Below, one piece after another: positions 23,641 through 31,314 of a stretch of DNA of 38,614 nt. Source of the DNA: an uncultured Bacilli bacterium (lineage in GTDB: Bacteria > Bacillota_I > Bacilli_A > RF39 > UBA660); the NCBI GenBank assembly GCA_947626125.1, contig CANQRA010000006.1:1-38614 (forward strand). The letters run 5' to 3'. Every line of letters begins with the position of its first letter. Positions within the stretch are counted from its first letter, which is position 1. The notes beneath the pieces are model-generated. The model made no database searches and had not been told where the DNA came from. It saw only the letters and a list, made by a program, of their open reading frames with translations. The position numbers and the translations under genes are program-made.

Positions 23641-24381
23641 ATGAAGTATTGTTTAATTTATATTGATAATGGATTTAAAGAACTTACTCAATTAGGGGAA
23701 TATGAGGGTTTTAATGAGCATTATCTCCGTTCTTTTGTTGAATTTGCTTGGAAATTTCAAGATGAAGATTGCTTGAAAGAATACTTATATTATAAAGGAT
23801 TAATTGATTCTCTTAATGGCCATTTTAGCCTTGGTTATTATAAAGGTGGTAATGTTAGAATATTACCCTATTCTCTTGCGTATGCTAAAGATAAGAAATA
23901 CTTTGATATAAATAAATTACTTGATTATTACAATTCTCATTTAACTGATAAAAAATTTATGGACCAATTTATTGATAAGTTTGTCACGCCTCTAAAAAAT
24001 ACCCCTAAATTAGGTTTAGTATTAAATTCCATATATAAAGATTATCAAAGGTTTTTAAGTACTAATCTAGTTTCTAATGATATGCATAGTTTAATGAATA
24101 GTTTTATTTTAAATTATGTCAATGTTAGAACCAAAGATGGGGTAAAAGAAAGCTTTAATCGTTTAAGAGAATTAGCAATGTTTGTTATTCAATTTAAAAA
24201 TAATAACGAAGTAAATAATACTGTTAATAATGAAGAAAGTATTAAATTACAAATTGAACATTATAGAGAATTATTAAGTGATAAAAATTTAGAGCCAGAT
24301 GTAAGAGAGGCTTACACAGAAGTTCTAAATAATTTAGAATACATATGGGATATTATAAATACAAGAAGGAGAAATAGGTAA
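23641..24381 (+). CDS. Uncharacterised 246-residue protein upstream of def
   Basis: I do not recognise the family. It is a soluble, Tyr/Asp/Lys-rich protein without signal, membrane helix or nucleotide-binding motif; residues about 200-240 could form a coiled coil (KLQIEHYRELLSDKNLEP). TTGAGGAAAA gives a good RBS. Its TAA overlaps the def ATG by one base (TAATG), so it is translated with peptide deformylase and may act with it, though that is inferred only from linkage. Confidence 0.65.
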   Translation: MKYCLIYIDNGFKELTQLGEYEGFNEHYLRSFVEFAWKFQDEDCLKEYLYYKGLIDSLNGHFSLGYYKGGNVRILPYSLAYAKDKKYFDINKLLDYYNSHLTDKKFMDQFIDKFVTPLKNTPKLGLVLNSIYKDYQRFLSTNLVSNDMHSLMNSFILNYVNVRTKDGVKESFNRLRELAMFVIQFKNNNEVNNTVNNEESIKLQIEHYRELLSDKNLEPDVREAYTEVLNNLEYIWDIINTRRRNR

Positions 24382-24932
24382 TGAAGTTACCAGATATAAA
24401 AATTTTAGATGAAAAAAATAAAATATTAAGAACTAAAAGCAATGAAGTAACATTTCCTTTAACAAAGGAAACTCGAAAAACAATTGAAGATGCCATTACT
24501 TACTTAACTATGAGTCAAATAAAAAAATATTATGAAAAATATAATTTAAGACCAGGAATGGGACTTTCTTTTATTCAATTAGGTATTCCTAAAAATATCT
24601 TTGTAATTGTTGAGGAAGTAGATGAAGAAAAATTTGAAAATTATATTATAATAAATCCTAAAATGATTAGTCATAGTGAAGAGTTAATTTATGTAGGAGA
24701 AGGTGAAGGTTGCTTATCAGTTAACCGGGAAGTAATAGGTATTGTTCCTAGGTATGCAAGAATGACTATCTCTTATCAAGATATGGATGGCAATAAAAAA
24801 GAAATTAGAGTAAGAGAAGATATATCGGTAGCTTTCCAACATGAAATGGACCACTTAAATGGTATCCTATTTATTGATAAAATAGATAAAAATAACCCTT
24901 TTAAAGATAAAGAAAAAATGCGTGAAATATAA
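24381..24932 (+). CDS. def: Peptide deformylase
   Basis: Removes the N-formyl group from nascent proteins with a metal ion. It has 183 residues. Motif 2 EGCLS and motif 3 FQHEMDHLNGILF (HEMDH metal site) are intact. Motif 1 is GMGLSFIQ rather than the usual G-x-G-L-A-A-P-Q; the essential glutamine is kept. AGGAG lies 9 bases before the ATG. It ends with its stop in the loop of a terminator. Confidence 0.9.
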   Translation: MKLPDIKILDEKNKILRTKSNEVTFPLTKETRKTIEDAITYLTMSQIKKYYEKYNLRPGMGLSFIQLGIPKNIFVIVEEVDEEKFENYIIINPKMISHSEELIYVGEGEGCLSVNREVIGIVPRYARMTISYQDMDGNKKEIRVREDISVAFQHEMDHLNGILFIDKIDKNNPFKDKEKMREI

Positions 24933-24942
24933 CGCATTTTTT
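24913..24942 (+). terminator. Terminator of def, embedded in the gene end
   Basis: AAAAAATGCGT (24913-24923) pairs with ACGCATTTTTT (24932-24942); 8-base loop. The TAA stop (24930-24932) lies at the loop/stem boundary. Confidence 0.85.
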
Positions 24943-25084
24943 CTGTTCGTTAGCCCTCGATTTTGTTCCACGCTTCCCTTAGCCCTAACATTACTGTTAA
25001 TGCTTTGCGCTTCTCTAACACTTCTTCGATACCTACGCGTGTATTGGACTTTCACCAACTAGATATATGTCATGCACGACACAC
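24943..25084 (-). mobile_element. 5' fragment of a group II intron
   Basis: Read on the minus strand, it starts GTGTGTCG (25084-25077), matching the group II 5' consensus GUGYG, then shows the domain I hairpin TTGG-TGAAAGT-CCAA (about 25058-25044) and further domain I-like text with a GCTAACGAACAG segment near the end. It stops at about 24943, next to the def terminator; no intron-encoded reverse transcriptase or domain V is in the window, so it is a truncated remnant. It begins directly after a terminator T-run, the target choice of class C introns. Confidence reflects pattern recall without an alignment. Confidence 0.65.
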
Positions 25085-25086
25085 AT

Positions 25087-25145
25087 AAAAAGCTAGCAGA
25101 ATGAGCTAGCCGTACCAATCGGGTAACGCTTAATGCGTTCTCCTA
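25087..25145 (-). ncRNA. Small RNA unit, copy 1
   Basis: Between a minus-strand promoter and a terminator lies about 59 bases: an AATAGGAG start, hairpin AACGC-ATTAA-GCGTT, a short GTACC-like hairpin, and the terminator GCTAGC (25110-25105)/GCTAGC (25097-25092) with T-run 25091-25087. No ORF of note. The promoter plus first hairpin recur at 29660-29716 with about 4 mismatches over about 66 bases. Here the region beyond the terminator is the intron fragment, so no partner gene remains. Confidence 0.55.
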
Positions 25146-25151
25146 TTAATA

Positions 25152-25180
25152 ATTTTAACATATTAATTTTTATTATACAA
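25152..25180 (-). promoter_or_regulatory. Promoter of small RNA copy 1
   Basis: Minus strand TTGTAT (25180-25175), 17-base spacer, TAAAAT (25157-25152). Same arrangement as at 29681-29709. Confidence 0.7.
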
Positions 25181-25205
25181 TTACTTTTTTATGAAAATAT
25201 CTGAA

Positions 25206-29412: not shown

Positions 29413-29441
29413 TTTACAAAAACAATTAAAACTGCTTTAAT
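29413..29441 (+). promoter_or_regulatory. Candidate promoter of the small toxin-like ORF
   Basis: TTTACA (29413-29418), 17-base spacer, TTTAAT (29436-29441). Predicted start near 29448 puts an 80-base leader before the 29530 start codon. Confidence 0.55.
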
Positions 29442-29465
29442 AAAGCCTAGGAGGACGAATTTAAG

Positions 29466-29537
29466 TTGTTGCCTAAAACTTTTTTTGAAGAAACTCAGTG
29501 GGTTTTGGATAGGAAGGTGGTGGGTGCCAATGAATAA
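29466..29537 (+). CDS. Possible leader ORF overlapping the toxin-like ORF
   Basis: A 23-codon frame starting TTG 29466, ending TAA 29535-29537, overlaps the start of the 29530 ORF by 8 bases. A perfect AGGAGG (29449-29454) lies 11 bases before it and is otherwise unexplained. Such a translated leader overlapping a toxin gene is known in hok/mok. The peptide itself has no recognised motif, and the spacing is on the long side, so this is a candidate only. Confidence 0.3.
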   Translation: MLPKTFFEETQWVLDRKVVGANE

Positions 29538-29628
29538 GAAATGTCGTGAAGATATATTATTATTTATTGTCTTTATGTTAGTCTTAACTCTGTTAATATT
29601 AATCATAAAAACTAGCCCTTTGAATTAG
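29530..29628 (+). CDS. 32-residue hydrophobic peptide, candidate type I toxin
   Basis: Sequence: a short polar N-terminus with two lysines and an arginine (MNKKCREDI), one membrane helix (residues about 10-27, LLFIVFMLVLTLLILIIK), polar tail TSPLN. AAGGTGG (29514-29520) lies 9 bases before ATG. Length, charge and topology fit small membrane-acting toxins of type I systems (TxpA/BsrG/Hol_Tox-like), though no sequence family is assigned. A convergent small RNA (29606-29674) overlaps its final codons and 3' untranslated region. Confidence 0.55.
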   Translation: MNKKCREDILLFIVFMLVLTLLILIIKTSPLN

Positions 29629-29674
29629 CAATAGGCTAGTTATCCCAACAGGCAACGCTTAATGCGTTCTCCTA
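29606..29674 (-). ncRNA. Small antisense RNA, copy 2
   Basis: From a predicted start near 29674, it includes the hairpin AACGC/GCGTT shared with copy 1, a variable segment, and the terminator AACTAGCC (29617-29610 read on the plus strand) with GGCTAGTT (29634-29641), 16-base loop, T-run 29611-29607. About 23 bases are complementary to the 3' end of the 29530 ORF. Together with copy 1 it is a duplicated promoter-RNA-terminator unit. Confidence 0.55.
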
Positions 29675-29680
29675 TTTATA

Positions 29681-29709
29681 ATTTTAGCATATTAATTTTT
29701 TATATACAA
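29681..29709 (-). promoter_or_regulatory. Promoter of small antisense RNA copy 2
   Basis: Minus strand TTGTAT (29709-29704), 17-base spacer, TAAAAT (29686-29681). Confidence 0.7.
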
Positions 29710-29719
29710 TTACTTTTTT

Positions 29720-29772
29720 ACTTTTAGGCCAAAAAATTTCTAAAAATTTCCGCTTGATTTTTTGCTAAAAGT
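29720..29772. repeat. Long imperfect inverted repeat
   Basis: ACTTTTAG (29720-29727) and CAAAAAAT (29730-29737) pair with ATTTTTTG (29757-29764) and CTAAAAGT (29765-29772), a 16-bp two-part stem with a two-base bulge and 19-base loop. It lies just outside the conserved part of small RNA copy 2. A related GCCAAA..TCTAGAAATTT motif occurs at 29351-29373 on the other side of the locus. Confidence 0.6.
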
Positions 29773-29859: not shown

Positions 29860-29881
29860 AAGGCTCAACATGAGCTTTTTT
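29860..29881 (+). terminator. Terminator-like hairpin in plus orientation
   Basis: AAGGCTC (29860-29866), loop AACAT, GAGCTTT (29872-29878) with one G-T pair, T-run 29876-29881. It points away from the toxin-like locus and ends at the stop of the convergent Rieske gene. Confidence 0.55.
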
Positions 29882-30101
29882 AATTTATATCTTTAATACT
29901 AGGAGCTTTAATACACTTACCTTCCTTAGTAAATCTTGAGGCATGACATGGACAATCCCAGGTGTTATCTACCTCATTATAAATTAATTTACATCCCATG
30001 TGAGGGCAAAACTTATTTTCTGGCTCTTTTTTGGTATAACCTTTTACATAACCTTTGAAGCTATACCAAGAATTTTTAGCTAATTCTTTAATATTTTGCA
30101 A
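29880..30101 (-). CDS. Rieske [2Fe-2S] domain protein, probably the severed C-terminus of the 30125 gene
   Basis: 73 residues from TTG 30101. The Rieske cluster ligands are C32 and H34 (CPHMGC) and C50 and H53 (CPCHASRF); C37 and C52 are the disulfide pair. No RBS precedes the TTG. The same frame continues upstream without stop to NKYENLVTPKRVIK, which would directly continue the oxidoreductase sequence if one base were restored near 30146-30150. It is therefore probably the last part of a YhfW-type FAD-Rieske fusion separated by a frameshift, not an independent protein. Confidence 0.75.
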   Translation of the reverse strand: MQNIKELAKNSWYSFKGYVKGYTKKEPENKFCPHMGCKLIYNEVDNTWDCPCHASRFTKEGKCIKAPSIKDIN

Positions 30102-30124
30102 TTTGATTACTCTTTTAGGCGTAA

Positions 30125-31246
30125 CTAAATTTTCATATTTATTTCTTTTCCTTGGATTAAATCACTGATGACTAAACCCGCTAAAGAAGAATTAGAGATA
30201 CCCCATGTATTATAACCCGTTGCCATTAATATACTCTTATCATTCTTTTTAATATAACCAATATACGGAATTTTATCAACCGTTAAAAGGTCATCATTTT
30301 TCCAAAGATAAGTAACATCTAAATTAAGATTTTGCATTTGTTTTACTAGCTTTTGATAATTTTCTTCTTCATTTAAATTATCACAGCTCTGGGAAGTATT
30401 AGTTAAGTATATTAAATTATTTTGATAATATCTTAAAGATACAATAGGCTTAGAACAATTAATAAAAGTTTCTTTTTTATTTAAAGCTGGAGATACGGCA
30501 ATATAAGACTTTTCAATACTTGTGCGAAGAGGTAAAAAATAAGGGAATAAAAAATATGGATAATGACAAGCTAAAATGATTTTTTTGGTTCTTATTTGAT
30601 TTTCTTGGGTAAAACATAAATATTCATTATTATTTTTTTGAATATCTATAATAGGTGTTTTTTCATAAATGGGTTTTCCCTTTTTTAAACATATTTGTTT
30701 TAGAGCATTTAAATATTTAAGAGGATGAAAAACATAAGTATTAGAAACACTAAGAGCATATTTACTATTAATAAAGGGATGATTCTTTTCGTCTTCCTTT
30801 ACAGGTGCTCCAAATCTTTTTAAAAGCGTACTTTCATATTTTAATTTTTCTATTTCTTCATCTTTATTAGTATAAACAAAGGAAGTTACCTGTTCTAAAT
30901 CACAGGCAATATGTTCTTTTTTAATAATATTAATAAGATGCTCAATTGCCTCAATTTGGGAATCATAATATAATTTGGCCGTATTAAAACCATACTTATT
31001 TTGAATGTCACTATATACATGTTCTTGTAGATAATTTATTTTACCTGTTGTGTGTCCAGTGGTAGCATGACCAATTAAATCACTTTCCACCAAAACAATA
31101 TTTAAATTGGTATCTTTTAAATTATAAAGGATTGATAAACCCGTAATACCTCCCCCAATAATTAAAACATCACATGTTATGTCCTCTTGCAAACGAGTAT
31201 AATTAGCATTCACATAGCCATCTAGCCATAGGCTTTTATTCTTCAT
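30125..31246 (-). CDS. FAD-dependent oxidoreductase (YhfW-like, DadA superfamily), lacking its Rieske tail
   Basis: 373 residues from ATG 31246 (AGGTGA 5 bases upstream). The N-terminus carries the FAD fold DVLIIGGGITGLSILYNL and an acidic residue after VLVE; GHTTGKINYLQE resembles the glycine-oxidase/DadA family. The C-terminal ATGYNTWGISNSSLAGLVISDL is typical. The frame stops at ISDLIQGKEINMKI, exactly where YhfW-type proteins run into a Rieske domain; the missing domain is encoded in another frame 24 bases later. Substrate is unknown. Confidence 0.85.
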   Translation of the reverse strand: MKNKSLWLDGYVNANYTRLQEDITCDVLIIGGGITGLSILYNLKDTNLNIVLVESDLIGHATTGHTTGKINYLQEHVYSDIQNKYGFNTAKLYYDSQIEAIEHLINIIKKEHIACDLEQVTSFVYTNKDEEIEKLKYESTLLKRFGAPVKEDEKNHPFINSKYALSVSNTYVFHPLKYLNALKQICLKKGKPIYEKTPIIDIQKNNNEYLCFTQENQIRTKKIILACHYPYFLFPYFLPLRTSIEKSYIAVSPALNKKETFINCSKPIVSLRYYQNNLIYLTNTSQSCDNLNEEENYQKLVKQMQNLNLDVTYLWKNDDLLTVDKIPYIGYIKKNDKSILMATGYNTWGISNSSLAGLVISDLIQGKEINMKI

Positions 31247-31314
31247 CTTCTTCACCTTTATTATTATGGCTAATTATTTAATTAATATTGTAAAAAAGAA
31301 TGAGTTATTCATTC

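Follow-up and report, generated by a model that had tools for sequence, protein, structure and literature searches.

A toxin-less antisense RNA beside a group IIC-like intron fragment: probable relic of a type I toxin–antitoxin-like locus in an uncultured Bacilli bacterium

INTRODUCTION

The TxpA/RatA and BsrG/SR4 systems of Bacillus subtilis are characterized by an antitoxin that pairs with the 3′ part of the toxin mRNA, over an overlap of 75–120 nt (PMC4147584). In the par system, the direct repeats DRa/DRb give rise to two RNAs that are complementary near the toxin start (PMC7472228). The AapA/IsoA systems of Helicobacter pylori form a set of paralogs, and in those tested the antitoxins are strictly module-specific (PMC6733600). 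Group IIC (class C) introns insert at intrinsic terminator motifs, and truncated copies of them are common in bacteria (PMC4424553).

The window analysed here (the whole 38,614-nt stretch of DNA, from an uncultured Bacilli bacterium) holds an orphan antisense RNA unit at 25.1 kb, with an intron fragment behind its terminator, and a related unit at 29.6 kb that faces a small-peptide gene. Loci of the latter kind resemble TxpA/RatA and BsrG/SR4 in their convergent transcripts, small membrane peptide, 3′ complementarity and a start codon that lies outside the overlap (PMC4147584). With Fst/par (RNA I/RNA II of pAD1) they have in common the convergent promoters, a hydrophobic peptide (~33 aa), an antitoxin of ~40–60 nt, a terminator stem-loop within the overlap and a toxin mRNA whose Shine–Dalgarno sequence sits in a local stem (PMC7472228). 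The likeness to AapA/IsoA consists of several paralogous chromosomal loci, a peptide of ~30 aa, a toxin mRNA closed by a 5′–3′ long-distance interaction and a module-specific antitoxin, the last two of which are predicted in the present case (PMC6733600).

RESULTS

The orphan unit at 25.1 kb is intact from promoter to terminator

The first-pass annotation had described the 25.1-kb unit as an orphan second copy of the small antisense RNA unit at 29.6 kb. The copy is present, on the minus strand, and its reading as an orphan is supported. Its elements are:

25175..25180, minus strand: −35 box of the orphan RNA promoter, TTGTAT (from the sequence; invariant in the 15-row alignment A3)
25152..25157, minus strand: −10 box of the orphan RNA promoter, TAAAAT, in the extended form TATGtTAAAAT, after a 17-nt spacer from the −35 box (from the sequence and A3)
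25122..25145, minus strand: 5′ leader of the orphan RNA, TAGGAGAACGCATTAAGCGTTACC, with hairpin AACGC/GCGTT and outer GG/CC (from the fold and the covariation of helix 1)
25087..25111, minus strand: intrinsic terminator of the orphan RNA, stem GGCTAGC/GCTAGCT plus T-run (from the fold and the covariation of helix 2)

Promoter, leader hairpin and terminator are all intact in the unit (25180–25087, minus strand), for which an RNA of ~60 nt is predicted. The terminator stem (25111–25091) has 7 bp, including four G–C pairs, and is followed by TTTT; the fold as a whole consists of two stems at −21.6 kcal/mol (z of −2.6 against dinucleotide shuffles). By blastn, positions 25122–25191 are 93% identical to positions 29651–29720 over 70 nt, in agreement with the 4 mismatches in 66 nt counted before, and the terminators of the two copies differ in sequence yet keep the fold, as had also been noted. 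The orphan scores 97.5 bits (E of 5.7e-17) with covariance model R1, of whose 15 training sequences it is one, and by this score, from a model trained partly on the orphan itself, sequence decay is absent. A peptide HMM run in all frames finds neither a toxin ORF nor a toxin relic beside the unit, which bears out the earlier statement that no toxin-like ORF adjoins it. The contig belongs to a metagenome-assembled genome, in which misassembly is possible.

The unit is one of many copies, most of which face a small ORF

The description as a second copy holds in that the copy exists, but it is one of 11 in the genome, nine of which are paired with a toxin-like ORF. These 11 were found in the own genome (G000, 1.24 Mb in 92 contigs) with R1, a covariance model built from 15 units (99 positions, 18 pairs), and blastn finds 10. 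At E ≤ 0.01, R1 recovers 88 units from 16 of 38 congeneric genomes; the broader model R2, at E ≤ 0.001, gives 145 matches in 20 of the 38, at least three of the matches being toxin-mRNA leaders and not antisense units. Elsewhere in the family, copies are scattered over 8 of 291 genomes from other genera, and a class-level search returns a few weak matches. All genomes compared are drafts, and most if not all derive from metagenomes. At the Rfam 15 gathering score neither the RNA at 25.1 kb nor that at 29.6 kb has a match, and a literature search on systems of this kind in Mollicutes, RF39 or Erysipelotrichia found nothing on this antisense–toxin family. Toxin-less units make up ~11–13 of ~85 in the genus, an approximate fraction given that contig ends truncate ~3 units and that several divergent toxins score under the threshold of the HMM.

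Two further arrangements were observed. In genome G012, tandem antisense units stand ~70–80 nt apart before a single toxin gene at two loci (L121, C28:9071 and 9242; L122, C9:21436 and 21595). The own genome holds a second toxin-less antisense unit (L015 1000–1510; G000 C2:8897–9408), where it immediately follows the toxin promoter belonging to a complete unit, and in the peptide of this complete unit the C-terminal helix is disrupted (MNKKYRETIQLFIVFILALSLANANNKKLTPKG).

Compensatory changes in both stems

In a 92-row alignment, changes on both sides are found in 17 of the 18 pairs, with 168 double-change cells against 42 expected from shuffles, and slid structures collapse. Helix 1 (leader) covaries in 8 of 9 pairs and helix 2 (terminator) shows compensatory change in 9 of 9. 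This alignment is fitted to the structure and includes six toxin-mRNA leader matches, and because of the fitting its counts lean towards structure. The MAFFT alignment A3 of 15 units, which is not structure-fitted, exhibits the same trend (11 double-change cells against 4.2). The letters of the leader stem vary by species (ACGC/GCGT, ACGT/ACGT, GTGC/GCAC, ACGA/TCGT and GCGTG/CACGC). The covariance-model search that had been proposed as a check on the unit thus yields compensatory changes as well as a small ORF linked to 69 of the 88 units. As judged from these sequence comparisons, the antisense unit is an RNA, with conservation confined to its promoter, its two compensating stems and the linked small ORF.

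The outcome named beforehand as damaging to this interpretation, an abundant intergenic repeat that is not transcribed, is contradicted by this pattern of conservation, many as the copies are. A mobile or intergenic repeat without RNA function, next to which ORFs lie incidentally, would suit the copy number of up to 13 per genome and the non-orthologous intergenic sites. It is nevertheless extremely improbable in view of the compensatory changes in both stems, the conserved promoter and the fixed geometry in which the two halves are linked across genera; in addition, no copy is found in viral contigs, where the exact pattern of the main subgroup was searched.

Paired loci look like type I toxin–antitoxin systems

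The intact locus in the window consists of:

29413..29441, plus strand: promoter of the toxin mRNA, TTTACA - 17 - TTTAAT (from the sequence; the same in own-genome paired copies)
29448..29473, plus strand: leader of the toxin mRNA, TAGGAGGACGAATTTAAGTTGTTGCC, a near-copy of the antitoxin leader (from model matches and local alignment)
29530..29628, plus strand: 32-aa one-helix ORF, MNKKCREDILLFIVFMLVLTLLILIIKTSPLN, the putative toxin, with RBS AGGAAGGTGG
29602..29709, minus strand: intact paired antisense RNA unit (covariance model, 90.4 bits)

The linked ORFs are convergent with the antisense unit, encode transmembrane peptides of ~28–38 aa with one hydrophobic helix and have an RBS upstream; in other genera the layout is kept, with different leader sequences and peptides of 21–24 aa. 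Pfam, NCBIfam and PHROGs give only chance matches for the peptide, and none of 28 peptides matches a toxin family in Pfam or NCBIfam at E ≤ 1. With their convergent small-peptide gene and complementary RNA, the paired loci look like type I toxin–antitoxin systems, in which the toxicity of the peptide is suggested by layout and peptide type only. The family thus combines the two components of a type I system, a small hydrophobic peptide gene and an RNA complementary to its mRNA, and the orphan itself is without the toxin. The intact loci (29448–29709, with homologs such as L011, L013 and L014) apparently constitute a large, undescribed type I toxin–antitoxin-like family. Farther along the window (29880–31255), an oxidoreductase-like ORF (30125–31255, minus strand) adjoins a short Rieske-like ORF (29880–30101, minus strand), and the two are possibly one frameshifted gene.

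Over its full length, the antisense RNA is complementary to the 3′ region of the toxin mRNA, last codons included; the 3′ end of this mRNA is predicted, and its course beyond the antisense start is assumed. Duplex gains amount to −52 to −75 kcal/mol for cognate and −4 to −39 kcal/mol for non-cognate combinations. The antisense model also matches the toxin leaders on the opposite strand, and in 36 of 64 loci no shuffle reaches the score of the local alignment between toxin and antisense leaders. Because a near-copy of the antisense leader opens the toxin mRNA, the 5′ end of this mRNA can pair with its own 3′ end. Such a 5′–3′ fold is predicted in 46 of 52 toxin mRNAs, with a mean of 21 pairs against 4.7 in shuffles, and ~9 of the 12 nt in the Shine–Dalgarno window are paired in the predicted folds, this window being approximate and the start codon misplaced in some runs. 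Among leader differences, changes that keep G–U pairing (A to G, C to T) outnumber the reverse by 134 to 22; these events are non-independent and the same changes also keep a local hairpin, so that the bias supports the fold-back without proving it. Antisense RNA and toxin mRNA would thus be transcribed convergently, and the whole antisense RNA would pair with the 3′ end of the toxin mRNA, leading to RNase III decay or to blocked translation. Until the antitoxin arrives, the 5′ end of the toxin mRNA is predicted to fold onto its own 3′ end, with the Shine–Dalgarno sequence mostly paired.

A group IIC-like intron fragment follows the orphan terminator

One further element lies behind the orphan unit:

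24940..25084, minus strand: 5′ fragment of a group IIC-like intron, truncated on its 3′ side (from Rfam; overlaps the RF02001 match at 24890–25000)

The fragment was correctly placed by the first-pass annotation right after the terminator: its start, GTGTGTC (GTGTGTCGTGCATGAC, ~25084), lies 2–3 nt past the orphan T-run, on the same strand as the orphan RNA, and it stops at the def terminator, near 24940. At the position of the intron start, intact copies of the unit have the final codons of the toxin ORF. The group II intron RNA structure is recognized in the fragment by RF02001, at 32.3 bits just over the gathering score of 32, and in the fuller relatives L054 and L055 at 123–134 bits. Ten related intron 5′ ends all follow hairpins, nine of them with a U-run too, and the terminator-adjacent insertion typical of group IIC introns is therefore seen in the orphan and in 9 of 10 relatives. 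An intron-encoded protein is missing from the window, no intact one is found in L054 or L055, and the own genome has no second intron copy. In L054 (G018) the intron again stands right after a toxin-less antisense unit, and no toxin is found beyond it; overall, 2 of ~85 antisense units carry the intron, and the toxin is missing in both. Within L054 (1400–2240), the intron has a degraded coding part, and the gene after it is transposase-like (IS4-type by eye).

The orphan is best read as a recent relic

The orphan is probably the antitoxin half of a multi-copy type I toxin–antitoxin-like locus that lost its toxin after intron insertion, and a recent relic is its best reading. The group IIC-like intron, which lies immediately beyond the antisense terminator and within what is the end of the toxin ORF in intact copies, probably separated the two halves. 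The toxin gene was probably removed later, together with most of the intron, by a deletion that would leave a transcribable-looking RNA gene without a cognate target. In agreement with the last point, none of the nine toxin mRNAs tested is complementary to the variable part of the orphan over more than 9 nt, the best partner of the orphan reaches −22 kcal/mol, like that of any non-cognate antitoxin, and paired loci on C8, C49, C19, C2 and other contigs have only the leader in common with it. As a class, the six main-subgroup orphans score below 35 paired units (Mann–Whitney p of 0.01). One orphan is present as orthologs in G025 and G034; the two are 80% identical, their flank 92%, and the promoter is broken in G025. 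Since the 25.1-kb orphan is not decayed, the loss of its toxin would be recent or the RNA still useful.

The flanking genes bear on the order of events. We located def in seven relatives and yjbR in eight; the genes that follow def and yjbR vary among relatives, and for this reason the def–yjbR junction cannot be polarised. The junction is found in the own genome and in none of the relatives examined, so that the order of intron insertion before toxin loss is a probable one. In both intron-bearing copies the toxin is missing from the far side of the intron as well, and its loss may therefore have preceded the arrival of the intron. Just upstream of def, a 246-aa protein (23641–24381) keeps its position in relatives and diverges fast, at 28–37% identity against 84–87% for def.

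Of the two fates proposed earlier for the orphan, a decayed locus or a regulator in trans, the first is favoured by the intron at the terminator, the missing toxin, the lack of a matching target and the degradation of other orphans. The orphan might instead have been kept as a stand-alone regulator that binds paralogous toxin mRNAs at their 3′ ends through the shared leader and thereby adds to or buffers the other antitoxins; this would fit the intact promoter, leader and terminator as well as the share of toxin-less units in the genus. Such action in trans is possible because the leader is perfectly complementary to six of nine toxin mRNA 3′ ends over 18–29 nt (23–29 nt in five and 18 nt in the sixth; 11 nt in the remaining three). 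We consider it unlikely, however, and do not favour it: the predicted energies of −2.8 to −22 lie within the non-cognate range, the target stretch is predicted to be paired already to the toxin mRNA 5′ end, the antitoxins of the similar AapA/IsoA family are strictly module-specific (PMC6733600), and the orphan class scores lower, with one orthologous pair decaying. The broader proposition that toxin-less antitoxin RNAs are kept as guards in trans on paralogous toxin mRNAs, and are created recurrently by group IIC introns homing to terminators, appears very doubtful.

The antisense half might also have been duplicated alone, never having had a toxin at this site, with its terminator serving the intron as an ordinary target. 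Antisense units stacked before one toxin (G012 C28 and C9), orphans adjoining complete units (G000 C2, G034 C24 and G029 C21) and an intron that targets terminators in general are consistent with such an origin. It has a low probability here, given that the nearest complete unit is 4.5 kb from the 25.1-kb copy and that the orphan terminator is no close copy of any other among the few loci compared.

DISCUSSION

As a finding, the family of intact loci outweighs the orphan, which is modest. It belongs to uncultured gut Bacilli with genomes of ~1 Mb and has up to 13 paralogs per genome. The inverted-repeat leaders on both RNAs offer a testable view of a toxin mRNA that closes itself with its own 5′ end, and paralogous antitoxins could stay specific through their variable terminators, which is likewise testable. 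For the orphan, read as a relic, a mobile intron landing on an antitoxin terminator would be a simple route to breaking such pairs.

The family differs from each of the described systems. Compared with TxpA/RatA and BsrG/SR4, it has a peptide of roughly half the length, for which neither Pfam nor NCBIfam offers a matching model, a duplicate of the antitoxin leader at the 5′ end of the toxin mRNA and up to 13 copies per genome. In contrast to the direct repeats of par, the shared leaders are inverted, with the same sequence on both RNAs, so that the toxin mRNA can pair with itself. Neither the peptide sequence of the Fst/Ldr family, with its PXXXG motif and charged C-terminal tail, nor its direct repeats giving 5′ complementarity are found. 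The AapA/IsoA systems are unrelated in sequence and belong to a different host phylum; moreover, the AapA3 antitoxin binds a 3′-truncated mRNA, whereas by layout the antitoxin here would cover the very 3′ end that forms the fold-back (PMC6733600). Finally, the intron at the orphan terminator resembles group IIC introns in its insertion site and differs from complete ones in that the window holds the 5′ fragment only, without the encoded protein that is the decisive marker of the class.
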